A stretch of DNA of 64,000 nucleotides. Source: Propionibacteriaceae bacterium (GTDB lineage Bacteria; Actinomycetota; Actinomycetes; Propionibacteriales; Propionibacteriaceae). Positions 141 to 15,328 of this stretch are shown here, in pieces. The translations under genes and the position numbers were made by a program. The stretch is from positions 1 through 64,000 of the forward strand of contig JAISHO010000047.1 of assembly GCA_031262485.1 (NCBI GenBank), given 5' to 3'. The notes beneath the pieces were generated by a model that worked only from the letters and a program-made list of their open reading frames with translations, was not told the origin of the DNA and searched no databases. Numbering within the stretch: the first letter of the stretch is position 1; each line of letters starts with the position of its first letter.

Positions 141-2609
141 GGATCACCCCCGCATTCGCGGGGATTACATCGCGGCGACCGAGAAGACTGGGAAAGACGC
201 CGGATCACCCCCGCATTCGCGGGGATTACCATCATACTTTGTTGTGTCCATGCCCGAGAGCAGGATCACCCCCGCATTCGCGGGGATTACTGTTCTTACT
301 TGATTGTTGTTGGAGTCAACAACGGATCACCCCCGCATTCGCGGGGATTACCGAGACACTGCGGCGTCTTGGATGCGCTAGACCGGATCACCCCCGCATT
401 CGCGGGGATTACGATGCTTGCGCATGCTGGCTTAGCGTGCTTCGCGGATCACCCCCGCATTCGCGGGGATTACACTACGGCAACGTCGATTCTTCGATAT
501 GAGCGGCGGATCACCCCCGCATTCGCGGGGATTACGTCCTCGATAGCGTCTGCGTAGTCATTGGGGAAGGATCACCCCCGCATTCGCGGGGATTACACAG
601 AACTTCTCTGGGCAGCCACGGGGAGACGCGGATCACCCCCGCATTCGCGGGGATTACAGGCGGAGCCCCTCGGGAATTTGCTCGAGCGCCGGATCACCCC
701 CGCATTCGCGGGGATTACCTTCTCCCCGGGGGAGGATAGGAGGTCGAGAACGGATCACCCCCGCATTCGCGGGGATTACTCACCGCCTGTCAACCATGCT
801 CATGCGATTAGCGGATCACCCCCGCATTCGCGGGGATTACTCGTCACCTCGTCGGCCGTGCTTCGCTGTCGAAGGATCACCCCCGCATTCGCGGGGATTA
901 CGTGTCGTGGCGCATCGACGTCAATAACCAACAGGGATCACCCCCGCATTCGCGGGGATTACTGGGAAGGCGCCCGCGACACCGCGACGAACGTCGGATC
1001 ACCCCCGCATTCGCGGGGATTACGTCGGCGCCACAGCCTCCAGGATGTCCGATGCCGGATCACCCCCGCATTCGCGGGGATTACCAAGGCAAACAACTTA
1101 CGTTAGCCTAGGCCTTCGGATCACCCCCGCATTCGCGGGGATTACTTCAATTTGGCGCCGTCCGGCGCTTCCCAGGTCGGATCACCCCCGCATTCGCGGG
1201 GATTACGGTGCTCGCCACCCGATCGAGTGGCGACGTGGCGGATCACCCCCGCATTCGCGGGGATTACTCAACGATGCATTGAGGTCGTCGACCTCACCCA
1301 GGATCACCCCCGCATTCGCGGGGATTACCCACTTGTAGACCGGGTCGGCCTCACAGGTGTCGGATCACCCCCGCATTCGCGGGGATTACCTTGGGTGGGC
1401 ACCGCCTGCCCGGGGGAGTGGCGGATCACCCCCGCATTCGCGGGGATTACACGCGTCTACAGGCCGTGAAGGCGTTGCAGCGCGGATCACCCCCGCATTC
1501 GCGGGGATTACCGTTTCCACGTCCGGCCAGCAGGACAACATGACGGATCACCCCCGCATTCGCGGGGATTACATCACCACCCTCATTGAAGGACTTGTCA
1601 CAGCCGGATCACCCCCGCATTCGCGGGGATTACTCTGCCCCGCCTAGGGGAGAGTTGACCCATCGAGGATCACCCCCGCATTCGCGGGGATTACTCGTTT
1701 TTGTAATCGTTTCCATCGCGCGTTCCAGGATCACCCCCGCATTCGCGGGGATTACTAGACCTTGTCGAGGACACGGGCAGCCACTGACGGATCACCCCCG
1801 CATTCGCGGGGATTACGCTGTGACGCGACTAGCCCGATAGGCGGGAGTCGGATCACCCCCGCATTCGCGGGGATTACTGACTGGGTCTCCTAATTCGCCA
1901 GGAATATGTCGGATCACCCCCGCATTCGCGGGGATTACCCAGCCCTCAGGGGCTAATTGTCGTGCAAGGAGGGATCACCCCCGCATTCGCGGGGATTACA
2001 TCTTGAGCCGCTCGTTCTCCTCGGCAAGTGCCGGATCACCCCCGCATTCGCGGGGATTACAGCGCCACGCGCCCGCTGATCCGGTACCAGGTGGGATCAC
2101 CCCCGCATTCGCGGGGATTACCTTCCGCACGGCGGCGACTAGTTCAGCCCCGGCGGATCACCCCCGCATTCGCGGGGATTACGACGTGCTCACGCGCGCC
2201 CCTCGGTAGACGAGCGGATCACCCCCGCATTCGCGGGGATTACTTTCACCGTTTTCTATTCCTATAACCCGCCTAAGGATCACCCCCGCATTCGCGGGGA
2301 TTACTCAACGGAGCCCTTGAAGGTCTCCATCGCCCCAGGATCACCCCCGCATTCGCGGGGATTACTTGGCGAGGAAGCTGAAAAGCTCCTCCTCGGCCGG
2401 ATCACCCCCGCATTCGCGGGGATTACTGAGGAGATGGTTAGAATGGCCGATTCCACTACGGATCACCCCCGCATTCGCGGGGATTACACAAAATGAGAGG
2501 ATGATTAACGTTGTCTAAGCGGATCACCCCCGCATTCGCGGGGATTACGTGGATCGATTCGGCGATCGCCTCGAGGCCGGCGGATCACCCCCGCATTCGC
2601 GGGGATTAC
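141..2609 (-). CRISPR. type I-E CRISPR array, 41 repeats and 40 spacers
   Basis: I located 41 copies of a 28-nt repeat, starting at 141 and every 61 bases after that; the last is 2582-2609. One step, 446 to 508, is 62, so that spacer is 34 nt and all others are 33. The repeats look identical, including both end copies. On the minus strand the repeat begins GTAATCCCCGCG and ends GCGGGGGTGATCC, giving a hairpin stem CCCCGC/GCGGGG with a GAAT loop, as expected for a Cas6e substrate. The base after each repeat on that strand is G in 29 of 41 cases, T in 9 and C in 3. This fits the Escherichia type I-E scheme of a 29-nt repeat whose last base comes from the PAM, with 32-nt spacers. The orientation of cas2 and of the repeat puts the leader at the 2609 end. 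Open reading frames inside the array are translations of the repeat and are not genes. Confidence 0.97.
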
Positions 2610-2700
2610 ACTTCTTGACTAGGAACGATACCCCATGGAGGCTCCTCCTTCATTCGAAGCTGGGCTCTGCGTGTCGGATCCTGAGGACTCACGATCCTTC
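2610..2700 (-). promoter_or_regulatory. CRISPR leader, overlapping the 3' end of cas2
   Basis: Only 9 bases separate the cas2 stop codon from the first repeat, so any leader of normal length must lie within the cas2 coding sequence. On the minus strand the last bases before the repeat contain TGGGGTATCGTTCC and AGTCAAGAAGT. A loosely similar series of words (TGGGGT, GTTC, AGTC, GAA) precedes the orphan repeat at 13418. I see no convincing sigma-70 promoter here. The outer boundary given is arbitrary. Confidence 0.45.
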
Positions 2701-3101
2701 TGCCGAGACGCATGCCTCTGCTCGACGGCGTTCTTATATCTCCGCCGTCGTTCAACGTTGCTCATAGGACGGCGACGCTTTTTTTCTGCCTCATGTTCAT
2801 GGTCTTCATCTGTCGAAACCGATTTCTTCGCACTTGGGCGGCGCATGAGGGTGAATCCGTCGTAGTCGACGGGGATCCAAGCGTGATTGTGAACTTGAAA
2901 GGCAAGTCTCTGCTCGTTGCGAGTCGTCCAGACCATGATCGCTCTCCCTCTTCCAACGTCATCTTGAATTCTCGCCCACAGATGCTGACGAACTCTCGCA
3001 GATAAGTGACCCACATATACTCCGGTGGCTATCTCAAGAAGCCATCTGGTGAGAACCCCGCGGAGACGCTCCGGGGTCACGGACAGCACCACCACTACCA
3101 T
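2619..3101 (-). CDS. cas2: CRISPR-associated endonuclease Cas2, type I-E, with basic tail
   Basis: Cas2e is the dimeric core of the Cas1-Cas2 spacer integrase. Residues 1-90 form the ferredoxin-like Cas2e fold, with the N-terminal strand MVVVVLSVTPERLRG and the late segment WIPVDYDGFTLMRR. Cas2e is usually about 95-120 residues; this protein has 160. The extra 70 residues are hydrophilic and contain a basic stretch at about 106-135 (EKKRRR, ERRRRYKNAVEQRH, RQKDR), probably helical or disordered. The ATG overlaps the cas1 stop by 7 bases, so translation is probably coupled. The stop lies 9 bases before the first CRISPR repeat, so the tail is encoded by the leader region. The tail could bind DNA, contact the acidic Cas1 tail, or simply be leader DNA read as protein. 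Confidence 0.93.
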   Translation of the reverse strand: MVVVVLSVTPERLRGVLTRWLLEIATGVYVGHLSARVRQHLWARIQDDVGRGRAIMVWTTRNEQRLAFQVHNHAWIPVDYDGFTLMRRPSAKKSVSTDEDHEHEAEKKRRRPMSNVERRRRYKNAVEQRHASRQKDRESSGSDTQSPASNEGGASMGYRS

Positions 3102-4192
3102 GGCAGTGCCTCGTCGTCATCATCGAAGATGACATCGTCATCGGTGCTCTCCTCAATCTCTTCAGATCCCGCTATGGAGTCTTCTCGAGACCGAGCATCT
3201 TTTGGTGACAAGGCTTGACGCATGTCATCGTCAGGTCCACCGTATGACGTTCCACCGGGGACGGAGCCGTCGCGTCCATCCCACAACTTGACAATTTCAG
3301 CCATGCCATCGTCCTCCGACGAGGCGCCAGAGAGGCCGAGCAAGAGCCAGGTGACGTCACGCACACACCGTTGAGCCAGTTTGGCTTCGAACATACGATC
3401 CCGCATGAGGCGGCGCACGTGAGCGCCGATATCGGTCACATCGGCAGCGGCCGCCTCGAAAGCGACCGGGATCGCCAATTCCGCCTTGTAAAGGTCGGCG
3501 ACGTCGTAAACGAAGGATCGATCGTGACCAGTATGAACAAAACCCAATCCGGGCGAACAGCCTAATGCCACGATGACGGCGTGAACGATGCCATAGAGAC
3601 ATGTCGTCGCTGCGGATAATGCTTGGTTGACTGGATCTGAGGCGGCGAAATCATCGGGGCGATACTCACGCCCAGTCCATTTCACTCCGGTCTTTGCAGC
3701 TTGTTCACGATAGACGCGACGCACCCGAGCGCCCTCACGACCCCGCAGTTGCTGCATCGTCAAACGGGAGACATTCTCCCCAGCGAAACGCATCTCGTAC
3801 ATCGCCCGTGCCACCGCTAGGCGTTTATCCCGGTTCGACACAGCCGCAGCCTGCGCTTCCAACAAACGCGACGAGTGCGACAATCCCCGGCCATGAGCGT
3901 AATACCGCACCCCTTTTTCGCCCGTCCACACGACCGTCGACCCACTCTCTGAGAGAAGCGTGACCGCTTGATGGGTGATGCTCGTGCCGGGCCCGAGCAG
4001 AAGGGCGCTCACGGCAGCGGCCGGGATATGCACTGTGCCCTCGTCATCAGTCGCTGTGATCGCGCTCGCATCTCGGGAGATGATCGCGCGCTCGACATAA
4101 ATGAACGACACCCGGTCTTGGACCCGAACGAGTTCCTGGAGCGTGGCTGGTTTCGCTCCAGGAACTGGCCGGACAGTGGTGTCGTCACTCAT
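3095..4192 (-). CDS. cas1: CRISPR-associated integrase Cas1, type I-E, with acidic tail
   Basis: Cas1e is the catalytic subunit of spacer integration. The three metal ligands can be placed: E153 in QLRGREGARV, H220 in GLGFVHTG and D233 in YDVADLYK, matching E141/H208/D221 of the Escherichia enzyme. At 365 residues it is about 60 longer than usual. The surplus is a C-terminal tail from about residue 310 dominated by Asp and Glu (EDSIAGSEEIEES, then DDDVIFDDDDEALPW). It lies 3 bases after cas6e and overlaps cas2 by 7 bases. The N-terminal beta domain and C-terminal helical domain look intact, so the enzyme is probably active. Confidence 0.95.
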   Translation of the reverse strand: MSDDTTVRPVPGAKPATLQELVRVQDRVSFIYVERAIISRDASAITATDDEGTVHIPAAAVSALLLGPGTSITHQAVTLLSESGSTVVWTGEKGVRYYAHGRGLSHSSRLLEAQAAAVSNRDKRLAVARAMYEMRFAGENVSRLTMQQLRGREGARVRRVYREQAAKTGVKWTGREYRPDDFAASDPVNQALSAATTCLYGIVHAVIVALGCSPGLGFVHTGHDRSFVYDVADLYKAELAIPVAFEAAAADVTDIGAHVRRLMRDRMFEAKLAQRCVRDVTWLLLGLSGASSEDDGMAEIVKLWDGRDGSVPGGTSYGGPDDDMRQALSPKDARSREDSIAGSEEIEESTDDDVIFDDDDEALPW

Positions 4193-4195
4193 GGT

Positions 4196-4846
4196 TCAGC
4201 GTGGCGGGGCCAAGGTGAGAAGACCACACCCGTAAGCCTTAGCCGCTCCAGCACCTTCTGTGAGAGTCCGACAAAGCGCCTCGGGGTTATTAACGATGAG
4301 AATCCCATCGAATGTCGCTTTCGACACCGTCACCGGTTTACCTTGGCGTTGGAATCGCTCGACGAGACGATCATGGACGACGACTTCCGCCCTCCCCTCA
4401 TGTTCGGCGACAATGAATCCCCACTTTTCCGCACGATCAAGAAACCATTGCCGCTGCTGAGTGACGGTGACATGGCCCACACGTTTCGTCTCTCCACCTT
4501 CGCGGATCCGGACAGAGTGAGAAGGATTCGCCGTCATACGAAAAGCCCAGCGTTGCCCGTCTTCAAGTCGGTTGAGGAAGCCAGAATAGTCACGGCTGTC
4601 CCAGGTGTCGTTCAAATCAGGCCACCCAGCCTGTTCCGTCAGCGAACTGAAACCTGGTCGTGGTTCACTCACCACATACAGCCAGGTACGGCCCCGATCT
4701 TGGTCAATACGCCACAACACCCGACCTCGCTCGTCGGCCGGCTGTGGGAAACACGCGAGGACAGCGGCATGCATAGCTTGTGACGAACCGAGGAGCTTGC
4801 GAGCTCCACGTCGCTGAGGATTGATCTGAACCCGGGAAAGATGCAT
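4196..4846 (-). CDS. cas6e: type I-E CRISPR RNA endoribonuclease Cas6e
   Basis: Cas6e cuts the pre-crRNA at the base of the repeat hairpin and stays bound to the 3' handle in Cascade. The N-terminal strand MHLSRVQINP and the segment QAMHAAVLACF are typical; the His in MHAAV is in the position of the catalytic His of the Escherichia protein. The C-terminal glycine-rich loop AGAAKAYGCGLLTLAP contacts RNA in this family. The chosen ATG at 4846 has GGAGG 7 bases upstream; a GTG directly before it at 4849 is the alternative. It overlaps the cas5 stop (ATG shares bases with TGA). Its length of 216 residues is normal. Confidence 0.93.
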   Translation of the reverse strand: MHLSRVQINPQRRGARKLLGSSQAMHAAVLACFPQPADERGRVLWRIDQDRGRTWLYVVSEPRPGFSSLTEQAGWPDLNDTWDSRDYSGFLNRLEDGQRWAFRMTANPSHSVRIREGGETKRVGHVTVTQQRQWFLDRAEKWGFIVAEHEGRAEVVVHDRLVERFQRQGKPVTVSKATFDGILIVNNPEALCRTLTEGAGAAKAYGCGLLTLAPPR

Positions 4847-5574
4847 CACTCCACCTCCAGCGCGGCCATCGGATCATGACTCCAGCGGCTATTCGCAGAC
4901 TTTTTCTGACGTGAATCCGGATTCGAGATCGTGATATGACATGACGACACCTGCCGCCATCCCCATTGCCGCGATTCCGGATCAAAACTGACCGGCGCGT
5001 CAGCCGTCGTCATCAGAGTCACGTGGTCTTCATCATCGGACATCGAGGTGGAATCGATTCGAACCTCGACAGACACATTTTCTTGTTGTTTGACGCGCCA
5101 CCACGTCGACGCTTGCCACGGCTCCTGAGTGAGCGCCTCCCACAGGCCGATCGGGCGCGTTCCAAGGGTGACGGGACCAACGGGCGGGCAAGATCGCCGT
5201 CCCAGAAACAAGGGAAACCGTGGATGCCGCAAAGCGTCATCCAGGGTTGAGATGAGATCGTCTTCTCCGCTCACCGCCGCCAGAAAAACACCATCGGCGA
5301 TGTAGTAGCGATTCGTCAGAGGAAAAGATTTCCCCTCCGCTGTCCGAGCCGTCTGGAAATCACGTTCGATCTGACCGGGTTGGTCGATTCTGACGCCGAA
5401 GCTCAAGCTGAGCAGGTCCTCGAGAGGATCGGTTCGACGCAACCCTTGAGCGGCCGCCAACAGCCCGATCACTCCACTCTTGGTCGGAGCACGGTCTGTC
5501 ATCCGTCGGGTGAAGCGTGACGAACTCCCCCACGCCTGCAAGGGCGCGGCGAGGCGCACCATGAGCGTTGCCAC
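4846..5574 (-). CDS. cas5e: Cascade subunit Cas5e
   Basis: Cas5e caps the 5' handle of crRNA in Cascade. The N-terminus MATLMVRLAAPLQAWG followed by SSSRFTRRMTDRAPTKSG, then VIGLLAAAQG, is the hallmark of the family. The 242 residues are near the usual length. The start is a GTG at 5574 with GGAG just upstream; an internal ATG at 5562 is also possible and would give a start closer to the Escherichia protein. One base separates it from the cas7 stop, and it overlaps cas6e. Confidence 0.94.
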   Translation of the reverse strand: MATLMVRLAAPLQAWGSSSRFTRRMTDRAPTKSGVIGLLAAAQGLRRTDPLEDLLSLSFGVRIDQPGQIERDFQTARTAEGKSFPLTNRYYIADGVFLAAVSGEDDLISTLDDALRHPRFPLFLGRRSCPPVGPVTLGTRPIGLWEALTQEPWQASTWWRVKQQENVSVEVRIDSTSMSDDEDHVTLMTTADAPVSFDPESRQWGWRQVSSCHITISNPDSRQKKSANSRWSHDPMAALEVE

Positions 5575-5575
5575 G

Positions 5576-6736
5576 TCAGCTCCACGATGAGGTGGCGTCA
5601 GCGTTTCCGGAGCCCGCCAAACCTAAACGTTGTGACACCGCCTCACCCACGGAATGAACGAGACCATCGAAGCTCATCCGTTCTCCCGTTCCGTTCAAAG
5701 CTTCGCCAACTTCTCCGATGCCCATCACCCAAGTTTCCACCGGACCACTTCCGTATGCATCGCTCACCTCAGCCGCATGTTTGGCAAGGTTCTTAGCTGA
5801 TGCCACCGACCGTCCGTCATCCAGCGATGTTTTCACCGGCTTTTCGAAAGCTCCGACAAGGGAGACCGATTGATCGTCGCGCAAGGATACGACGACGCCT
5901 TCCGGCAAGGTTCTATTCGCGAAGGTGTTCTGCTTGCCCGTCGGCATTGAACGGACAAATGACTTGGTGAAAGCCTCGACGGCGCGCTTCGTCGCCTCAT
6001 CGTCGCCAAGATTTTTGCGAAGCAAATCAACGTCGAGCGTCGCATAGCGATAGAGGGTCGCGGAGTCGAATTCGACCGTGCCGATCATTCCGGCGCCGGC
6101 ATCCTCCTCTGCATCAGCCTGCTTGTGGTCATCCACAGCAGTGAAATAGTCATACTCGATCTCAACGGGGTGGGTTGAGAGGGCGTGCGCCACCTGGCAG
6201 GAAGCGTCGACGTTGAGATCCGAGACGTCGGCGACCATCCGGCCGAACAAAGCCAGATCGATCGAGTTCTTCCCCTTGACGAGAGATTGAGCTTCCTTCT
6301 TATCTACGGCATCACCTTCCGAGAAAGCCCGATAAGCGAGTTCGGCGAGCGCATCGATCTGAAGAGCTGAGACGAACATGAGATAACCGGATTCGGGGAT
6401 CATCCCCTTCTTCGGCTCTTTCACCTTGATGCCGGTGGCATCCCAGACCGCTTTCGCCGCCGTACGAGCGTCCTCCTCGGATAATTCTGGATGCTTCGAG
6501 GCGATCGCCTCACCAACCAATTCGACGATTCGTTTCGTCCGTGTTCCTAAGTCACGTTCGTCGAGGTAATCGCGGAAGTCCTGCCGGGTTGCCCTCTTCC
6601 ACGCTTGTGAAGACACGCGCGCTCGGCGGACACCGCCGTACGGCGCCGTCTTCGGAGAACCGGTGTCGTCCCGGTTGAGATTGCTCGGGGGAACCGTCTG
6701 AAGAATATGGAAATCAAGAATCGTGCGGGTCATCAT
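5576..6736 (-). CDS. cas7e: Cascade backbone subunit Cas7e (CasC)
   Basis: Six copies of Cas7e form the crRNA-binding backbone of type I-E Cascade. The N-terminus TILDFHILQTVPPSNLNRDD, with GSPKTAPYGGVRRARVSSQAWKR split just after it, is diagnostic. The length of 386 residues is slightly above the usual 350-370. The gene begins ATGATG, overlapping the cse2 stop by 4 bases, so it is probably translated by reinitiation. Confidence 0.95.
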   Translation of the reverse strand: MMTRTILDFHILQTVPPSNLNRDDTGSPKTAPYGGVRRARVSSQAWKRATRQDFRDYLDERDLGTRTKRIVELVGEAIASKHPELSEEDARTAAKAVWDATGIKVKEPKKGMIPESGYLMFVSALQIDALAELAYRAFSEGDAVDKKEAQSLVKGKNSIDLALFGRMVADVSDLNVDASCQVAHALSTHPVEIEYDYFTAVDDHKQADAEEDAGAGMIGTVEFDSATLYRYATLDVDLLRKNLGDDEATKRAVEAFTKSFVRSMPTGKQNTFANRTLPEGVVVSLRDDQSVSLVGAFEKPVKTSLDDGRSVASAKNLAKHAAEVSDAYGSGPVETWVMGIGEVGEALNGTGERMSFDGLVHSVGEAVSQRLGLAGSGNADATSSWS

Positions 6737-7395
6737 TTCTCCTCTGAAACTGTCGGGGATTGTGCGGGGGAACGGTCGAGCCAGTGGTACTGACGGCCCC
6801 AGCGGCGACGCACCTGGTCCGCTCCGCCAGGGCGTTGGAACGCCAACAGATCATCGGCTAGCCGACCATAATCGAGCCGGATCGGCGCGGAAGCCGAGCG
6901 CATTTGAGCTATGAGGCCACGCATGTGAACCACAGCCTCGTCGAAGGTCGTCGCTGTCACCACTTGGTTGAATCGGCGGCGAACCGGAGAGACCTGATCG
7001 CCCGAATCGCCGGGACCGGCTTGCGCTTTCTCCAGATTGTGGACGGCTTGTCCGAATCCAATCCCCCGCCCGTGAACCGTCTCGGTCTGAGACTGCCGAT
7101 GAAGGGCGAATAAGGCCATCGCTGTATGGATCGCCCACTCCTCGGGAACCGGATCATCGCTCCCCGGCTTATGGGCATAAGGAACTTCGTCCAGGGTGAC
7201 CGACCACACGCGCGGATCCTCACCCGGGGAATGTCCAAGAGAGCGGCGCAGGTGAGCGAGCGTCGCTTTCGTCGTTGACGACTCAATCGTCTTCTCGAGC
7301 CATGAGATTTTCCCATCGACGTAACGAGCGACAGGAGACGTTGCGCCGTAGACGCTTCTCGTTGTCTCCTGAGTCGGAGTCCCCTGGTCATCCAT
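6733..7395 (-). CDS. cse2: Cascade small subunit Cse2 (CasB)
   Basis: Cse2 forms a dimer on the Cascade belly and stabilises the R-loop. This protein is all-helical, with the conserved YVDGKISWLEK near the N-terminus and a C-terminal RLDYGRLADDLLAFQ segment. I chose the ATG at 7395 because AAGGAG lies 7 bases upstream; an open frame extends to 7464 but would overlap cse1 by 77 bases. With this start it has 220 residues, longer than the 160 of Escherichia but common in actinobacteria. It overlaps cse1 by 8 bases and cas7 by 4. Confidence 0.92.
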   Translation of the reverse strand: MDDQGTPTQETTRSVYGATSPVARYVDGKISWLEKTIESSTTKATLAHLRRSLGHSPGEDPRVWSVTLDEVPYAHKPGSDDPVPEEWAIHTAMALFALHRQSQTETVHGRGIGFGQAVHNLEKAQAGPGDSGDQVSPVRRRFNQVVTATTFDEAVVHMRGLIAQMRSASAPIRLDYGRLADDLLAFQRPGGADQVRRRWGRQYHWLDRSPAQSPTVSEEK

Positions 7396-9151
7396 GTGTC
7401 TCTCCTTCTCTGGATGTCGCCTCGTCCGCCCCAACCGATGTAGCCTCGGTACTCGCTCCGTCATCGTCAGTTCGATAAGCCTCTGGGAGCGCTTTCCTTA
7501 ACCCTGATCGGAACCAGGCCTCGGCGAGACCGGCGTCGAGGTAACGGTTCATCATCGACGTCTTGACTTGCCGCCCGACGTAGGCGACGGGGGTCGCATC
7601 GTCGAGGATTCTCTGGGCCACCATCGATCCGACCTCATTTAGAGTTGTCTTCCAAGCGATTTCCCGTTCTCTGAGGTCGGCATCGGCAGCCAATGTGACG
7701 ACCCATTCTCGAAAGACCGGTTCGAAAGCGGCGTAGGCCTTCTCCAACCCGACATCGCGAGCGTGGTCGGCAGCTGTGTCTTCACCGGAGGCGAAGGCGA
7801 TATTGCGCGCCAAGTCGCCTAGTTTTCTGGCGATGTCTTCGGCGAGAGCGATCATGTCCATCACCGTTCTTGCAGCGTTCTCATACCCTTGAGTGAACAA
7901 GATCGCCGGGAGTTTGATTGTCTCGGCAACGAGATCGGAGTAGACAGCGTCTTGGGTTCCATACTCCATACCGACAGCCTGAAGCTCGATAAGGGGGGAC
8001 CCCCCAGTCTCGCCCTCCGGACGCCGTTGGACTACCCCGATCCATCGCAAGACTGCCGGTGCAAGCGTACGAGCAGGGCCTGACCGACCTGGGGAATGTT
8101 GATCGACAGAAGGCAGCAGTGCCGGAAGGCCACGCCATAATGCCCGTGTGGGGTCATGTTTGCGGGGCATATAGGTGTCGTACCCAAGCGCTTTCGTCTG
8201 CGGCTCCGAATAGCGCCACCCCGTCATCGGTTCCACCACGTGCCGGTTCTGTGGAGTGGCACGATCACCTTGACAGTTCAGGACTCCCGTGACTCGTGAG
8301 TGCTCTTCATCGTCGAAAAGACGAATACGACGTGACGGCCACGTGTAGAGGTCCACCTGTCCCTTTGGTTGACGGTATTTCTTCCCTTGCTTATCTCCGG
8401 GATATTCCGGCGAAGCAGTCAGAGACGGACGTTCCCAGACCGGCTCGTCGGCATCTGAATCTTCCGCCACACCGTCGAGACCCACCGTGGCCGGGACAAT
8501 AAGATTAGACAGCAATGTCTCCTGAAGATTCCGGCCGACGAGGTTGATCCCACCGATCTGCCCGGCCCAGCCGGTGCCGATCCCATAGCCTTTTCCCCCT
8601 TTGACTCGTGCGTCCCCGACAGCCCCCGAGTGAATTCCCGAAATATCGTAAGCCTGGCAATGGATGAGCCATCGGGCAGCCTCAGCCCATGATAGGGATT
8701 CCAGCCCTGCACCCAGCCGAGTGCTGAGGAATGTCGACGCGCCCGGACCGTCACAGATGAGCCGGGAAAGGTCGAAGATCTCGTCCTTCGCCGTGCGAAG
8801 ATCGGGGACTTGCATGAACGGTTCGACGGGATGGCGCATCCAGAACCGGTGATGCCATATGTCAAGGTACTCATCAATCTCTTCGACGACCCCCGCCCAA
8901 TCGGAACGGATATCCTCCCACTCATCAAAAGAATGAGGCCCCCGACAGGCTCGGTGAAGAACTGCCAGCAATACTCGGAGAATCGCAAATGATTGCGTCG
9001 GCAACTCCCCGGCAAGTGCTCGGATCTCCTCAGCCTGATGGAACACCTCACGAAGCGAGACCTCGGACGTCTTCCCACCCTCGTCGAGGACCGCGACCCA
9101 CGGCTCATCAACGAGGTTGAAGGTCATTTCTGGGGTTGGAGTCTCCCTCAT
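7388..9151 (-). CDS. cse1: Cascade large subunit Cse1 (CasA)
   Basis: Cse1 recognises the PAM and recruits Cas3. The N-terminal MTFNLVDEPWVAVLDEGG, the central CDGPGASTFLSTRLGAG region and the C-terminal four-helix bundle with NRYLDAGLAEAWF identify the family. It has 587 residues from the ATG at 9151, which is preceded by AGGAG; an internal ATG at 9127, preceded by GGGAG, starts right at MTFNLVDEP and fits homologues slightly better. The gap to cas3 is 69 bases, the only sizeable gap inside the cas operon. Confidence 0.94.
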   Translation of the reverse strand: MRETPTPEMTFNLVDEPWVAVLDEGGKTSEVSLREVFHQAEEIRALAGELPTQSFAILRVLLAVLHRACRGPHSFDEWEDIRSDWAGVVEEIDEYLDIWHHRFWMRHPVEPFMQVPDLRTAKDEIFDLSRLICDGPGASTFLSTRLGAGLESLSWAEAARWLIHCQAYDISGIHSGAVGDARVKGGKGYGIGTGWAGQIGGINLVGRNLQETLLSNLIVPATVGLDGVAEDSDADEPVWERPSLTASPEYPGDKQGKKYRQPKGQVDLYTWPSRRIRLFDDEEHSRVTGVLNCQGDRATPQNRHVVEPMTGWRYSEPQTKALGYDTYMPRKHDPTRALWRGLPALLPSVDQHSPGRSGPARTLAPAVLRWIGVVQRRPEGETGGSPLIELQAVGMEYGTQDAVYSDLVAETIKLPAILFTQGYENAARTVMDMIALAEDIARKLGDLARNIAFASGEDTAADHARDVGLEKAYAAFEPVFREWVVTLAADADLREREIAWKTTLNEVGSMVAQRILDDATPVAYVGRQVKTSMMNRYLDAGLAEAWFRSGLRKALPEAYRTDDDGASTEATSVGADEATSREGETHG

Positions 9152-9220
9152 CGTGGCCAGTCTCCTGGTGCACCGATCGCCATCAGGCCATCCTTCGTCT
9201 CATTCGTCACTGCGTCGAAC

Positions 9221-12200
9221 TCATCGATCAGTGTTAGGCATCATTGCTTCGTCATCAATCATTAAACCCTTGAGAGGATCGTAACGATACGTGTGCGCGC
9301 CGACGGTAGCGACACCCCGATGATTAAGAGGAAGTATTAGTTGTCCTGCCAATCCGGCGGCGTCCGTCCCCTGCCAAGCCTCGGGCATGAAATCGGTGAG
9401 TTCATCGATGAGAACGTCACCCTCGGCTCCCTGGCAGAGCCACGACGGCAGACCGACGGCACAGCCAGCCAAGGCGCGACATTGCCCGTTCGACGGAGCC
9501 GCGTCTCTGGGGACGAATTGCCCGGCTTGACGGTGGCTCCGTCCCGTCTCCGGATCATTGATCCACGAAGGGATCCTCCAGCGTTCCCCTTCCTGCGCCT
9601 CGACGATGATGACCTCGAAGGAGTCATTCGTGTCTCGAACCTGCGCTCGCCCACGGGCACGGGCGTCATCGGGATCACCGATCGAGGTATCGAGCCATCC
9701 GCACAACGATGATTCTCCTGGGGGGCGGGGCGATCCAAGCCGAAAACTCGTCGCTTTGCTCTCTGACTCGTCTCGTCGGGCGTCATCGGCATTCTTCGCT
9801 ATGGCTAACTCCTCCTGCCACGCAGGTGGCCCCAGAGGAACGTCACCGTAGGTCTCATCGACCAGAGGGGCGATGTCGTATGGGAGGTGAACCACACCAC
9901 CGCTGTCGGTGAGGTGGCGAACTTGGGCAGCGGTTCTCAACAACAGATAGTCACCGTAAACACGACGGCTGCCACTGTCAATGACGGAGGGGTTTGCTTG
10001 CCATTGATCAGCGACGACAAGACATCGAGGTTCACGCATGCCCGCCGGGCGGGAGTCGGTCGGCCGATCATGGCGATGCAGGCGCCCGATGCGCTGAAGA
10101 AGGAGATCCATCGGTGCGAGATCGGTGACAATGAGATCGAAATCGAGATCGAGACTCTGCTCGACGACTTGCGTGGCGACGATAATGCGACGAGCGGGCC
10201 GCCGCCCCGAAGACCCGAGCTCATCGACAAGTCGCTTCTCCTTCGCTTTCCGATCAACCGCGAGGAACCGGGCGTGGAGCAATTCGACATCACTCGAATC
10301 GAATACGTCAGCTATGGCTCGATAGGTCTCTTGCGCTCGGCGGACAGTGTTGCGCAGGACGAGTACGCATCCTCCACCTCTTGCCTCCGAGATCACGCGA
10401 TCGATCGTCGTCTCGTCATCAATACATTCCAGTCGCACCACGCGAGCGCGGTTCGAAGGAGGAACGGGCTCGTGACAAGTGACTCCCCCGCGGCGGAAAG
10501 AAAGCAGTGATGAGACGACGGGGGACACGGCTTCAGCAGCCATGTCACCGACCATGACGCTATGACTTCCCGCCTCAGCGTCGCCGACTCTCCGACCGCG
10601 TCCACGACCGCGCTTCCGTGTTCCTTCACCTGGCCGATCGTCGTTCTGCGGCGTCGATGTCTGCCTCCATACCGCCGCTCCCTTCTCGTACGCCTTCTCC
10701 AGACGATCCCGTAGCCCCCGGGGCAGCGTCGCTGAGAGAGCGACGACCGGAGTGCCGTACGCACCCAACCATTCGAGGGCTCTCAATAGATACTTATTCA
10801 TATAGGCGTCAAACGAATGGACCTCGTCGAGCACGACGACCTTACGAGCGAACGACAGGTGACGAAGTTCCACGTGTCTCGACTGCAACGCCGCGAACAG
10901 AACCTGATCAATAGTGCCGGCGACGAAGTCGGCCAAGATACCTTTCCGACGTCCGGTCATCCACCGATCGACGTAGGCGGCCCCGCTCTCTTGTCGAGAA
11001 CGTCTCGGTGATTGTTCAAACGGCGACGATGCGACACCGTCTCCGTCTCGGTCCATATCTGTTGGCATCGGAGAACCATGAGGGAGATTGATGTAATCAG
11101 GATTGAGCCACGCCTTGCCGTGGGCTAAAAACACTGATCTGCCAGATTCGTCCGTGTCTCCCAAGAACGGATCTGCGGAGATAGGGGCATTGTCGGGAAT
11201 GTGGTCGATCCAGCGCAGCAGCCGACGGAACATGGCGTCGCTCGTCGCCTGAGTGGGGAGCGCGACGAATACTCCACCTGCGCCGGTGCGTGCGGCGAGG
11301 ACCTCCGCTGCCATGAGGCCGGCTTCTGTCTTTCCCTCCCCCATCGGGGCTTCGATGATGAGTAAACCTGGCGCGTCCATCGTCATCGCCGCTTCGACAG
11401 CGGCGACCTGGATGGGACGAGCCACCGACCCCTTCGGCACATCGAACCGTTCATGAAGCATGCACTCGGCAGTGGTTTCTCTGTTCCACGACACCCGCCA
11501 AGGGGAGGGCAAACGAATCGCGTCCCATGCCCGTTCGAGACGTTGCTCGCTCTCTTCAGACGGCTGGGGCAAGGAGGAATCATCTGATATCGGTGTGAGG
11601 GGATAGAAATCTGTGTTCGAGGCGAGCCAATCGGCGACGACGACAATGGAGAGAAGAAGCGACAGAGCGGTGTCCGGCAGGCGCTTCCACAGATCCGACC
11701 TCAGATCTTCGACAACCCCGGAACGTTCCGCCATATGATCTAGCAGTTCGTTTTGAACCTCTTGCCAGCGGCCCTCCCCCCGTAGGTCCTTTTCCGTTGG
11801 CCCCATTCCGTGAAAACCATCGAATTGATCAACTTCGTCCCCTCTCGGGGGAACACCATGGTGCCCACCGACGACTGATGCCAACGCCATCGCCGTGTGC
11901 TCCGACCATCCGAAGGAATCGCAGAGCCACCACGTCATCAAGGCGCACCCCGCCAATCCGTGGTGAAACTCTCGACGATTGCGAAGATCCTTTGCCTCTC
12001 TCGGCATCGACAATCCCTCGAGAAACATCCCATCGCGGAGACGGGGAACCTGGATCGCGAACGCCGGCGTCGCCTTGCCGATATCGTGAACTCCAGCCAG
12101 GAAAGTCACGAGCGCTCGGGCCTTTTCCGGTCCCCCGGCATAACGTCCGATGAGGCTGCGGACGGAATCGGGTAACCAGCGATCCCACAGACGTCCTGCG

Positions 12201-12427
12201 ACATCCGCCGAGTCGTAGAGGTGGCGCCACAAGGGGTTCCACAGCTCGATCGGACCATGCATCGGCCAACTCTTGGCCCAGCATGAGCGGGCGGCCTGGG
12301 TGAGTGGACGAAGTGGAACCGCCGGGGATTCAGTGCTAGTATTAGTAACACGACGGGCCGGAGTCCGGAACGTTGTCAGCGGGGACCCTTCGGGGTCCCC
12401 TGCTTTTTGCTCATTTATGGACGCCAT
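9221..12427 (-). CDS. cas3: CRISPR-associated helicase-nuclease Cas3 (HD plus DExH)
   Basis: Cas3 is the ATP-driven nuclease recruited by Cascade to degrade target DNA. Domains in order: HD nuclease, residues 45-275 (LWRHLYDS at 67-73, GVHDIGKATPAFA at 112-124, FHHGLAG near 155, VGGHHG near 190); helicase, with Walker A MGEGKT at 362-367, LDEVHSFD at 533-540, a SAT motif (ALSATLP) and motif VI QRIGRLHRH; then a Cas3 C-terminal domain. At 1068 residues it is longer than the usual 890-950, with a 40-residue N-terminal lead and low-complexity inserts such as GTRKRGRGRGRR. I see no other in-frame start before the conserved LTQAARSCWAKS, so ATG 12427 is used. It overlaps the upstream DUF3800 gene by 13 bases. 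All catalytic motifs look intact. Confidence 0.94.
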   Translation of the reverse strand: MASINEQKAGDPEGSPLTTFRTPARRVTNTSTESPAVPLRPLTQAARSCWAKSWPMHGPIELWNPLWRHLYDSADVAGRLWDRWLPDSVRSLIGRYAGGPEKARALVTFLAGVHDIGKATPAFAIQVPRLRDGMFLEGLSMPREAKDLRNRREFHHGLAGCALMTWWLCDSFGWSEHTAMALASVVGGHHGVPPRGDEVDQFDGFHGMGPTEKDLRGEGRWQEVQNELLDHMAERSGVVEDLRSDLWKRLPDTALSLLLSIVVVADWLASNTDFYPLTPISDDSSLPQPSEESEQRLERAWDAIRLPSPWRVSWNRETTAECMLHERFDVPKGSVARPIQVAAVEAAMTMDAPGLLIIEAPMGEGKTEAGLMAAEVLAARTGAGGVFVALPTQATSDAMFRRLLRWIDHIPDNAPISADPFLGDTDESGRSVFLAHGKAWLNPDYINLPHGSPMPTDMDRDGDGVASSPFEQSPRRSRQESGAAYVDRWMTGRRKGILADFVAGTIDQVLFAALQSRHVELRHLSFARKVVVLDEVHSFDAYMNKYLLRALEWLGAYGTPVVALSATLPRGLRDRLEKAYEKGAAVWRQTSTPQNDDRPGEGTRKRGRGRGRRVGDAEAGSHSVMVGDMAAEAVSPVVSSLLSFRRGGVTCHEPVPPSNRARVVRLECIDDETTIDRVISEARGGGCVLVLRNTVRRAQETYRAIADVFDSSDVELLHARFLAVDRKAKEKRLVDELGSSGRRPARRIIVATQVVEQSLDLDFDLIVTDLAPMDLLLQRIGRLHRHDRPTDSRPAGMREPRCLVVADQWQANPSVIDSGSRRVYGDYLLLRTAAQVRHLTDSGGVVHLPYDIAPLVDETYGDVPLGPPAWQEELAIAKNADDARRDESESKATSFRLGSPRPPGESSLCGWLDTSIGDPDDARARGRAQVRDTNDSFEVIIVEAQEGERWRIPSWINDPETGRSHRQAGQFVPRDAAPSNGQCRALAGCAVGLPSWLCQGAEGDVLIDELTDFMPEAWQGTDAAGLAGQLILPLNHRGVATVGAHTYRYDPLKGLMIDDEAMMPNTDR
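12380..12407 (+). terminator. UUCG hairpin with T-run, antisense within the start of cas3
   Basis: GGGGACCC at 12381-12388 pairs with GGGTCCCC at 12393-12400 around a TTCG loop and is followed by TGCTTTTTGC on the plus strand. This has the form of a strong intrinsic terminator for plus-strand transcription, yet it lies within codons 10-16 of cas3, which is transcribed the other way. The same stem sequence is used after the formate-THF ligase gene (13588-13607). In cas3 mRNA the complementary hairpin has a CGAA loop and could reduce early translation. Confidence 0.5.
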
Positions 12428-13185
12428 TTATTTGAATACCTGAGAACTGGCTTCAGCCTGTTGAATAAACTTCGAGTTGCTCTTGACGCTTTCGGATGCT
12501 GGTTAGCAACTTCAGTATGACGCCTTACGATATAAGCAACCAAATCAGCGGCTTGAACTCCGGTACACCCCGAAGAATCAACAAATTTTACAGAGTCATC
12601 AATATTCAATAGCCTTCCCGGGTGGGACGAAGAGGCAGCGAGGCTCGATCCATCGATGACTCGTCCAAACAACGTCTGTGCATCCACGTTGCTCAATCCG
12701 ACTTCGTCCGCGATGATCTGCGCCTTGCCCCCATTGCCAGACTCGCACCATAGATTTACCTGTTCAAGGGCACGCCTCATACCGACTTCATACGGTTTTG
12801 CAGGATAGCTAAACCTCTGGTTCAGACTTTCAACGTCCACGCCCTGAACAGCCGCTTGCGCTCCACTCTCGACGATAGCCTCAATCAGCCTGCCGTAGAG
12901 TCTCACTGCGTCTCCAACACGTCCGCGAAGTGAGGACCACCCTCCCTTTCCCTGCATCATTTCATGAGCATGGAACTCCATGTTTGGGGAGATCCCATAG
13001 CTTGGATGGATACCTTCTCGAATTCTCGCGAAGCCATCCTCAAGAGAAACAACTTGACTCTCCGTCATCAAGAGAGTGGCCACGTAGTGATCCGTATCTC
13101 TCTCCGTGTAGCTCTCGTCAGCAAAGATCCAAAGGTCTCCACTACTCGCACGCAGATCGAGAAAGGATGGCCTCGTCGTGTCCAC
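12415..13185 (-). CDS. DUF3800 family protein, coupled to cas3
   Basis: DUF3800 proteins are predicted RNase H-like enzymes of unknown activity, often found in mobile or defence contexts. Visible motifs: LWIFADESYT at 18-27, EFHAHEM at 70-76, QIIADE at about 156-161 and GVQAADLVAYIVRR at 209-222. The acidic set D23, E70, D160 and D214 is laid out like a DEDD active site. I prefer the GTG at 13185, with GGAGG 6 bases upstream, over the TTG at 13197. The stop codon lies 13 bases inside cas3, so the gene is the first of the cas operon and is probably co-translated with cas3. It is not a standard type I-E component. The fold is inferred from motifs; a role in interference or adaptation is unknown. 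Confidence 0.8.
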   Translation of the reverse strand: MDTTRPSFLDLRASSGDLWIFADESYTERDTDHYVATLLMTESQVVSLEDGFARIREGIHPSYGISPNMEFHAHEMMQGKGGWSSLRGRVGDAVRLYGRLIEAIVESGAQAAVQGVDVESLNQRFSYPAKPYEVGMRRALEQVNLWCESGNGGKAQIIADEVGLSNVDAQTLFGRVIDGSSLAASSSHPGRLLNIDDSVKFVDSSGCTGVQAADLVAYIVRRHTEVANQHPKASRATRSLFNRLKPVLRYSNKWRP

Positions 13186-13228
13186 GTCGTCCTCCAACCT
13201 GATCCATCTTGGACTACTTAATTTTACT

Positions 13229-13253
13229 AGACCAACGTCTTGAACGTTCGTCT
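13229..13253. promoter_or_regulatory. candidate operator upstream of the DUF3800-cas operon
   Basis: AGACCAACGT and ACGTTCGTCT form an inverted repeat with 9 of 10 matching positions around a 5-base centre. It lies about 44-68 bases upstream of the DUF3800 start, immediately beside TAAAAT (minus strand), which could be a -10 element. A repressor bound here would control the whole cas operon. No regulator gene is adjacent. Confidence 0.35.
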
Positions 13254-13260
13254 ATTTAGG

Positions 13261-13289
13261 ACGATAGTATCGTTCCATGAATTCGTCAA
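13261..13289 (-). promoter_or_regulatory. candidate cas operon promoter
   Basis: On the minus strand TTGACG (13289-13284) is followed by TACTAT (14-base gap) or TATCGT (17-base gap). The -10 region is itself a perfect palindrome, ACGATA-G-TATCGT at 13261-13273. The second spacing is normal for a housekeeping promoter; the first has the better hexamer. It is a candidate only. Confidence 0.35.
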
Positions 13290-13349
13290 GGACGAGACGC
13301 GTCGATGCTCCTTCCTCTGCCCTAGAGATAGGTTCCTCTACGCCTTCCG

Positions 13350-13474
13350 CTCAGCTGTTAGATTAAAACGATCCCAACTGCTGCTGGGGTGATCCCGTTC
13401 AAGTCGTGGGTCTCGAAGTGCTCCCCGCGTATGCGGGGGTCGTGGCCCCTGGGTCCTCCAGGGGCCACTTATAT
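13350..13474 (+). other. orphan CRISPR leader plus single type I-E repeat and hairpin
   Basis: At 13418-13445 there is one I-E-like repeat, GTGCTCCCCGCG followed by TATGCGGGGGTCGTGG. It matches the main array repeat at 21 of 28 positions, including the whole CCCCGC/GCGGGG stem, but has a GTAT loop. It is on the plus strand, opposite to the cas genes. The preceding 70 bases are leader-like, with an AT-rich stretch (TTAGATTAAAACG) and GGGGTGATCC. The last four bases of the repeat begin a perfect 11-bp hairpin, GTGGCCCCTGG with CCAGGGGCCAC (13442-13468), followed by TTATAT. No second repeat follows. It could be an array that lost its spacers or a short regulatory RNA. Confidence 0.6.
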
Positions 13475-13579
13475 CGAATACCGACCTTCCCAGCTTTGGG
13501 CTAACCTGGGACTCATAATCCCCGGGTCCTCCTCTCCCGTCTTGAGCGGTGATGAGGCCGGGGTATTTCTTTGCCCTGA

Positions 13580-13608
13580 AATAGCGAGGGGACCCCGAAG
13601 GGTCCCCT
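13580..13608 (-). terminator. intrinsic terminator of the formate-THF ligase gene
   Basis: On the minus strand GGGGACCC-TTCG-GGGTCCCC (13607-13588) is followed by TCGCTATTTC. The stem lies 26 bases after the stop codon. The T-tract is short, but the UUCG loop makes the stem very stable. It has the same stem as the antisense hairpin inside cas3. Confidence 0.7.
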
Positions 13609-13633
13609 GCCTTGTGGATCCGGTATTCGCCCG

Positions 13634-15328
13634 TCAGAACAGACCGGTGATCTCGCCGTTCTCGTCGATGTCGATGCGTTCGGCGGCGGGGTGTTTGCTG
13701 AGGCCCGGCATGGTGCGGATGTCTCCGGCGATGGCGTAGATGTAGCCTGCCCCGGCGGCTAGGCGGAGGTCGCGGATGGGGAGCGTCCAGCCGGTCGGGG
13801 CGCCTTTGAGCTTCGCGTCCGAGCTGAGGGAGAGCTGGGTTTTCGCGATGATGACGGGCAGGCCGCTGTAACCCAATTTCTCGAAACGGGCGATTTGGGC
13901 CTTGGCCGGCGGGTCGTAGGTGACGGCGGCGGCGCCGTAGACCTTGGTGGCGACGGCTTCGATCTTCTCGGTGATGGAGTCGCTTAGGTTGTAGCTCGGC
14001 TTGAGCTCGTTGGTGTTGTTCTCGCAGGCTTCGATGACGGCGGCGGCCAACTCCTTGGCGCCTTCGCCGCCGTTGACGACGTGGGTCGAGACTGCGCTGC
14101 GAGCGCCCTCCTCCTCGGCGACCTTTTGGACGACGGCGATCTCGTCTTCATGATCGGTCGGGAAGACGTTGACGGCGACGACGGGTTCGACGCCGAAGCC
14201 CTTGACGATGCGGATGTGGGCGCGCAGGTTGTCGGCTCCGTCGAGGACGGCCTGCGGGTCGTCGGCCAGCATCTCCTCCGGCAGTGGCTTTCCGGCCACG
14301 ACGGTGAAGCGGCCGGAGTGGGATTTGAGCGCGCGGATCGTCACAACGATGACCGCCGCCGACGGCGTCAACCCCGACACGCGGCACTTGAGGTTGACGA
14401 GGCGCTCGAAACCCATGTCGGAGCCGAAGCCGGATTCGGTGATGACGTAGTCGGCGCACTTCAACCCCACCTGATCCGCCACAACCGACGAGTTGCCGGT
14501 GGCGATGTTGCCGAAGGGGCCGGTGTGAATGAGCACCGGGGTGTTCTCCGTCGTCTGCAACAAGTTGGGTCGCAGGGCGTCGTCGAGCAACACGGCCATG
14601 GCGCCGGCGGCGCCGATCTGCTCGGCCGTCACCTGCTCGCCGCTCTTCGACAACCCGATGACGATGCGGCCGAGACGCTCGCGCAGATCCTTACGCGACG
14701 TCGCCAAGGAGAGGATGACGCCGACCTCGCTGGCCGACGTGATGTCGAAGCCGGACTGGCGCGGCACACCGTCGAGACGGCCACCCAACCCGACGATGAT
14801 GTTGCGCAAAGCGCGATCGTTCATGTCGACGACACGACGCCACATGATCGACGACGGCTCGATGTCGAGCTCATTGCCCTGGAAGATGTGGTTGTCGATC
14901 ATGGCGGCCAGCAGGTTGTGCGCCGCGCCGATGGCGTGGAAGTCGCCCGTCAGGTGGAGGTTGAGCTTCTCCATCGGCAGCACCTGGCTGTACCCACCGC
15001 CGGCGGCGCCGCCCTTGATGCCGAACGTCGGGCCCATCGACGGCTGACGCAACGTCAACATCGACCGCTTGCCCAACTTCTCCATGCCCTGCGCCAAGCC
15101 GACCGCCGTCGTCGTCTTGCCCTCGCCCAGCGGCGTCGGGGTGACGGCCGTCACAGCGACATAGTGCGCCTTCGGAGCCTCGGCCAAACGTTCGCGGATG
15201 TCGAGCGACACCTTCGCGACCGTCGAGCCATAGTGCTCGAGTTCCTCCGGGACGATTCCAGCCCTCGCGGCCACAGCGTCGATGCTGTCGAGATGAGCGG
15301 CGCGGGCGATCTCAAGATCAGTTAACAC
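13634..15328 (-). CDS. fhs: formate--tetrahydrofolate ligase
   Basis: The enzyme makes 10-formyl-THF from formate, THF and ATP in one-carbon metabolism in the cytosol. The P-loop TPLGEGKTTTAVGLAQG, then RQPSMGPTFGIKGGAAGGGY, the formate/THF segments LTGDFHAIGAAHNL and FGNIATGNSS, and the C-terminal GYIYAIAGDIRTMPGL are all characteristic. I place the start at the GTG at 15328 (VLTDLEIARAA), where homologues begin; the frame stays open upstream to 15451 without homology. It has 564 residues, normal for the family. It is monocistronic, with its own terminator. Confidence 0.95.
   Translation of the reverse strand: MLTDLEIARAAHLDSIDAVAARAGIVPEELEHYGSTVAKVSLDIRERLAEAPKAHYVAVTAVTPTPLGEGKTTTAVGLAQGMEKLGKRSMLTLRQPSMGPTFGIKGGAAGGGYSQVLPMEKLNLHLTGDFHAIGAAHNLLAAMIDNHIFQGNELDIEPSSIMWRRVVDMNDRALRNIIVGLGGRLDGVPRQSGFDITSASEVGVILSLATSRKDLRERLGRIVIGLSKSGEQVTAEQIGAAGAMAVLLDDALRPNLLQTTENTPVLIHTGPFGNIATGNSSVVADQVGLKCADYVITESGFGSDMGFERLVNLKCRVSGLTPSAAVIVVTIRALKSHSGRFTVVAGKPLPEEMLADDPQAVLDGADNLRAHIRIVKGFGVEPVVAVNVFPTDHEDEIAVVQKVAEEEGARSAVSTHVVNGGEGAKELAAAVIEACENNTNELKPSYNLSDSITEKIEAVATKVYGAAAVTYDPPAKAQIARFEKLGYSGLPVIIAKTQLSLSSDAKLKGAPTGWTLPIRDLRLAAGAGYIYAIAGDIRTMPGLSKHPAAERIDIDENGEITGLF

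Follow-up and report, generated by a model that had tools for sequence, protein, structure and literature searches.

Positions 13359-13468 on the plus strand of the analyzed 64,000-nt stretch of DNA (hereafter, the window) most probably encode a cas-regulating crRNA-like RNA of the CreR type, through which Cascade would repress its own operon; we assign this sequence-based reading a probability of about 0.88. The initial annotation had proposed a crRNA-like regulator of cas expression at this place, and this proposal proved to be the best explanation of what was found: the match of its guide to an AAC-flanked site in the cas promoter, the recurrence of the arrangement in related genomes, and a 6-nt period in the guide-target mismatches. 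Self-control of a CRISPR system by its own guide is already known, and the window very probably provides a well-supported new example.

The window lies at the beginning of contig C34 in a 2.84-Mb genome and contains a type I-E cas3-cas8e-cas11-cas7-cas5-cas6e-cas1-cas2 locus (2619-12427, minus strand), in which every ORF is open, a point counted in favor of the CreR reading. The operon is headed by a DUF3800 gene (12415-13197, minus strand) that overlaps cas3 by 13 nt, so that the order of elements read from the promoter on the minus strand is DUF3800, cas3, cas8e, cas11, cas7, cas5, cas6e, cas1, cas2, and then the main CRISPR array (141-2609, minus strand). The main array comprises 41 exact copies of the 28-nt repeat GTAATCCCCGCGAATGCGGGGGTGATCC and 40 spacers, of which 39 are 33 nt long and one is 34 nt long. 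Since the array begins only 9 nt past the cas2 stop codon (2582-2700, minus strand), its leader must be situated within the 3' end of cas2; the cas2 ORF encodes 160 aa, of which residues 1-85 form the Cas2 domain. At the leader-distal end of the array, which is also the start of the contig (60-115), GGGTCAAAATTCA-like words are repeated, and this segment resembles the end of an insertion sequence.

The mini-CRISPR is located upstream of the cas operon on the plus strand and is arranged as psiR1-psiS-psiR2, followed by a perfect 11-bp hairpin. The degenerate first repeat, psiR1 (13368-13395, plus strand), has 19 of its 28 bases in common with the main repeat, and its 3' handle GTGATCC is complete (7/7); an identity of 19 was reached by one of 2000 Markov resamples of the region 13198-13417. 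A possible -10 element of the mini-CRISPR, TAGATT (13359-13364, plus strand), can be read 3 nt ahead of psiR1, and several relatives carry TAGACT or a similar word close to psiR1. Between the two repeats lies psiS (13396-13417, plus strand), the 22-nt guide CGTTCAAGTCGTGGGTCTCGAA, whose first base was counted as the third-base place of the PAM, with the guide numbering starting after it. The second repeat, psiR2 (GTGCTCCCCGCGTATGCGGGGGTCGTGG, 13418-13445, plus strand), has 21/28 identity to the main repeat and a preserved stem, together with a degenerate 3' handle (3/7); such a match was found once in the window and in none of 100 shuffles. The hairpin (13442-13468, plus strand; arms 13442-13452 and 13458-13468, 5-nt loop) shares the last 4 bases of psiR2 and is probably a terminator, one lacking a T-run; a perfect 11-bp hairpin was seen in 0 of 1000 Markov controls.

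The initial annotation had thus correctly recognized psiR2 as a variant of the I-E repeat oriented opposite to the cas genes, with the perfect hairpin built into its end; the main array, too, runs opposite to this repeat. It described this repeat as single and standing alone, whereas a second copy is present at 13368-13395, 22 nt upstream; the stretch that it called a leader is therefore the first pseudo-repeat plus a short spacer. A leader identity was considered for the 150 nt upstream of the repeat and rejected, as their resemblance to the corresponding region of the main array is at chance level (a local score of 18, reached by 59 of 500 shuffles). With repeats of 19/28 and 21/28 identity to the main one and a spacer of 22 nt compared with 33 nt, the locus is not a canonical array; two repeat-like sequences flanking one spacer beside a cas operon constitute the layout expected of CreR. 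No Rfam family was matched in the window. Three features of the locus count against the CreR reading: the psiR1 stem is weak; the lowest-energy structure, when folded without the terminator, pairs psiR1 with the tail of psiR2 instead of forming two repeat stems; and the mini-CRISPR runs against the direction of the cas genes, whereas the two share one direction in the 18 remaining loci of the pairing profile described below.

The guide matches the cas promoter region behind a candidate PAM AAC (13246-13248, minus strand). Over guide positions 1-21, the protospacer (13225-13245, minus strand) agrees with the guide at 17 of 21 bases, with mismatches at positions 8, 12, 18, and 20; scored over 14 positions, the match is 12/14. 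The complementarity between the flank of the repeat and the cas promoter, for which the initial annotation had recommended a search, is thereby located in the 22 nt preceding psiR2. A match of 12/14 was attained by none of 5000 guide shuffles in 1.3 kb and by none of 20000 in the intergenic region. When the complete genome was scanned with 19 specified bases and up to 3 mismatches allowed, the cas promoter was the best site besides the guide itself (2 mismatches), with one further site at 3 mismatches, and the reversed-pattern control yielded no sites. Among the window's own 40 main-array spacers, none matched the upstream region at 11/14 or better. A PAM-flanked, partial complementarity to the cas promoter, as known for CreR, is thus present, with AAC as the candidate PAM. 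There are two candidates for the operon's promoter: a -10 element TAAAAT (13221-13226, minus strand; 5/6), which lies 19 nt downstream of the protospacer start and is overlapped by the target, and TTGACG-17-TATCGT (13261-13289, minus strand; 9/12), with which the target would be situated just past the transcription start.

The arrangement recurs in related genomes. Cas8e matches were found in 43 of 198 same-family genomes, and 40 other loci were taken, two weak partial matches (G191 and G050) being left out. The nearest relative with a cas locus (L036 in genome G010) has a contig that ends at cas3 and hence provides no upstream DNA, so it was dropped, giving a comparison set of 39 relatives, probably Propionibacteriaceae, plus the window. 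A candidate was defined as a psiR1 bearing the handle, then 17-47 nt, and then a psiR2 whose stem is 5 bp or longer; these scan rules were fixed after inspection of the first examples by eye, which counts against the result. The layout that the initial annotation had suggested looking for in relatives was detected upstream of cas3 in about half of the set (21 of 40 loci, window included). Of these 21 guides, 19 have a match of at least 11/14 to an AAN-flanked target within the upstream region of their own locus; the two below the threshold came from L069 (10/14) and L062, an ordinary array (7/14). The same threshold was reached in only 4 of 805 swapped pairs (a guide compared with the regions of other loci) and by 5 of 1402 main-array spacers compared with their own upstream regions. 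With the PAM condition lifted, AA still precedes the best site in 18 of 19 loci. Similar guides occur in L047, L049, L050, and L052 (and L069), and the 19 loci therefore amount to approximately 15 independent cases.

The remaining 19 loci of the set have no candidate by the fixed rule, which counts against the CreR reading. They include two (L058 and L061) of the three same-genus loci that, besides the window, have upstream DNA; L065 probably carries a mini-CRISPR as judged by eye, was missed by the rule, and was left out of the counts. The region 13198-13480 matched only its own genome among 19 genomes of the genus, and 13100-13650 gave no match in the plasmid records. Among named relatives, a Cas3-only scan produced 46 pattern matches, none of which was confirmed, and a second scan used a Cas7 alignment to obtain 80 named loci, 74 of them usable. 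A mini-CRISPR with a matching target passed the strict test in 6 of the 74, namely in Microbacterium suaedae, a Frankiales MAG, Streptomyces sp. 7-21, Acidipropionibacterium timonense, Cutibacterium porci, and a Brevibacterium MAG. Since A. timonense (L052) and C. porci (L047) already belong to the family set and only four of the six are additional, the layout is rare outside the family by this test. Individual loci show further variation. The mini-CRISPR of L042 seems to have an almost intact psiR2 (27/28). Upstream of cas3 in L055, which belongs to the same genus, the target of a 23-nt guide is not on the strand of the cas genes but on the other one; this guide is mismatched at position 8, as in the window.

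The mismatches between guides and their targets are distributed with a regular period. The pairing profile was compiled for 19 loci, excluding L053 (a near copy of L046) and the ordinary array L062 and retaining L069. Guide positions 1-5 and 7 are paired in all 19 loci, whereas matches are observed in only 5 of 19 loci at position 6, 4 at position 12, and 3 at position 18. Mismatches occupy 45 of 57 cells at these three positions, compared with 42 of 285 elsewhere, a contrast equaled by none of 20000 permutations. According to PMC5965380, I-E Cascade flips out bases 6, 12, 18, 24, and 30 and uses positions 1-5 and 7-8 as the seed; such a 6-nt pattern is hard to explain unless the guides work within Cascade on these targets. 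In L047, L049, L050, and L052, guide and target have changed together with the mismatch at position 6 retained. The guide of the window follows the pattern at positions 12 and 18, but its position 6 is paired, unlike in 14 of 19 loci, and its position 8, at the seed edge, is mismatched; both deviations count against the CreR reading.

The decay of the two repeats is also patterned. Mean repeat identities were calculated for 15 loci, leaving out L055, for which the main repeat is not known, and L038, L048, and L057, for which it is out of register. The handle is conserved at an average of 6.7 of 7 positions in psiR1 (7 in the window) and 3.0 of 7 in psiR2 (3 in the window), the psiR1 handle being part of the search rule and that of psiR2 not. 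In 13 of 15 loci, psiR1 is more diverged than psiR2. CreTA modules, as described in PMC9458426, likewise have a psiR1 that retains the Cas5-binding handle and a psiR2 with a degenerate one, and the same decay is seen in the window (7/7 versus 3/7).

In the CreR reading, a short plus-strand transcript would start near psiR1 and end at the 11-bp hairpin, and Cas6e would cut the base of both the psiR1 and psiR2 stems to produce an RNA with the 5' handle GTGATCC from psiR1, the 22-nt spacer, and the stem of psiR2. Once it carries this RNA, Cascade would bind the cas promoter at the AAC-flanked protospacer (13245-13225, minus strand) and would obstruct RNA polymerase either in the -35/-10 region or shortly past the start site. 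Cleavage by Cas3 should be avoided given the combination of partial pairing (17/21) and a short guide. The expected outcome is negative feedback, in which spare Cascade represses the DUF3800-cas3-cas8e operon until ordinary crRNAs compete for it or an anti-CRISPR removes it. Autorepression of this kind by partial promoter complementarity has been described for CreR in types I-B, I-E, and V-A (PMC13131331), and, according to PMC12737573, it is lifted by crRNA competition or anti-CRISPRs. In E. coli, Cascade can bind with as little as 5 bp of pairing, while interference needs more than 18 bp (PMC5904413); by these thresholds, the 17 paired positions agree with a binding-only match. The same source reports that off-target Cascade binding in E. 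coli left nearby expression unchanged, so binding alone need not result in repression, which counts against the CreR reading.

The guides of the 19 loci cluster near 22 and 33 nt: 12 guides are 21-23 nt long, five are 33-34 nt long, and the single cases of 39 and 45 nt belong to L042 and L045, respectively. Even the 45-nt guide of L045, located upstream of cas3, shows the 6-nt pattern in its pairing with the promoter. The short guide of the window may help to avoid self-cleavage. In the Haloarcula type I-B system, a spacer shortened to 24 nt represses without interference (PMC10989794); in type I-E, cleavage is slowed but not lost with guides shortened by 6 or 12 nt (PMC7296934), so the short length need not be the safeguard by itself. 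We regard as unlikely a more specific form of the CreR reading, in which a naturally truncated guide would build a smaller, binding-only Cascade as a safety against self-cleavage and, in this genome, an RNase HII-like DUF3800 nuclease would have been captured in addition, at the head of the repressed operon. If it were true, phage anti-CRISPRs disabling Cascade would free new Cas proteins and the DUF3800 nuclease together.

Three other explanations were weighed against the CreR reading. The initial annotation had stated that normal multi-spacer arrays at this place in relatives would make the locus a simple deletion remnant. Such arrays do occur upstream of cas3 in L038, L042, L062, and L064, and the degeneration of both mini-CRISPR repeats is also what a functionless remnant of a second, once normal array would display. 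Two of these four loci, L038 and L042, nevertheless hold the normal array alongside a mini-CRISPR, and the spacer of the window is 22 nt long rather than 33. Moreover, a remnant would not be expected to match the promoter in the observed pattern, with at least 11/14 in 19 of 21 mini-CRISPR guides compared with 5 of 1402 ordinary spacers and with a 6-nt periodicity; we consider this explanation very improbable. Still less probable is an RNA anti-CRISPR or a Cas6e decoy in the form of a solitary repeat, which would sequester Cas6e or Cas7 without a guide. The strong stem of psiR2 followed by a terminator-like hairpin would suit such a role, and Racrs are solitary repeats (PMC10651486); the window, by contrast, contains two repeats beside its own cas operon and a guide that matches the cas promoter.

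The third explanation concerns the DUF3800 gene, which lies directly downstream of the targeted promoter. In a guard system similar to CrePA or CreTA, the guide would chiefly silence DUF3800, and the loss of Cascade activity would release a toxic nuclease. The predicted DUF3800 structure (mean pLDDT 86.6) gives its best alignment with RNase HII (Z 12.4, rmsd 3.0, 168 residues aligned), and its acidic residues are conserved, which together with the 13-nt overlap with cas3 speaks for a guard; CRISPR-repressed toxins are known (PMC12737573). A Foldseek search with the model returned no hits at E of 0.001 or below, the best being RNase HII at 0.007, and at the sequence level the protein has no solved relative, no NCBIfam match, and no match to a PADLOC model, the last of which argues against a guard. 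Counting its own genome, 11 of 195 genomes of the family encode a relative of DUF3800; a search of the cas loci of the 40 relatives and of the 80 named loci, with an E threshold of 0.1, gave no match. The 18 other profile loci have guide-targeted cas upstream regions without DUF3800, and the cas genes belong to the same operon, so that their repression would happen regardless. A guard function as the chief role is accordingly very improbable.

With the CreR reading, an odd repeat becomes a feedback circuit that can be tested and that DUF3800 would tie to a possible second line of defence. Engineered shortened guides part repression from cleavage in a type I-B system (PMC10989794), and the short-guide class poses the question whether bacteria use guide length to the same end. 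At the family level, the natural I-E guide-promoter pairs form a set that spells out rules of Cascade binding, namely a seed at positions 1-5 and 7, a candidate PAM of AAN, and free positions 6, 12, and 18.

Liu et al. reportedly described, in Cell Host Microbe in 2023, CreR RNAs derived from modulatory mini-CRISPRs in types I-B, I-E, and V-A, and Shmakov et al. are said to have described, in NAR in 2023, standalone repeats and crRNA-like mini-arrays, the latter having a spacer that partly complements the promoter of a cas locus. Racrs share with the window a repeat located outside an array and close to a promoter-like element; according to PMC10651486, they are carried by viruses and plasmids as single repeats and act by inhibiting the effector, whereas the window carries two repeats and a guide, is part of a cas locus, and places them beside a complete cas operon rather than solitary and away from cas genes. 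CreA of CreTA resembles the mini-CRISPR in having a more diverged psiR1 with a conserved handle and a psiR2 with a degenerate one, but it represses a toxin gene (PMC9458426), whereas the target of the window's guide is the cas operon promoter. The closest likeness is to CreR, a crRNA-like RNA that is encoded next to the cas operon and partly complements its promoter (PMC13131331, PMC12737573, and PMC12948488). CreR has no dedicated toxin; in the window, the operon is headed by DUF3800, with its RNase HII-like predicted fold. Compared with CreR as portrayed in these reviews, the window may also be distinguished by a 22-nt guide against 33-nt main spacers and by having the mini-CRISPR and the cas genes on different strands.
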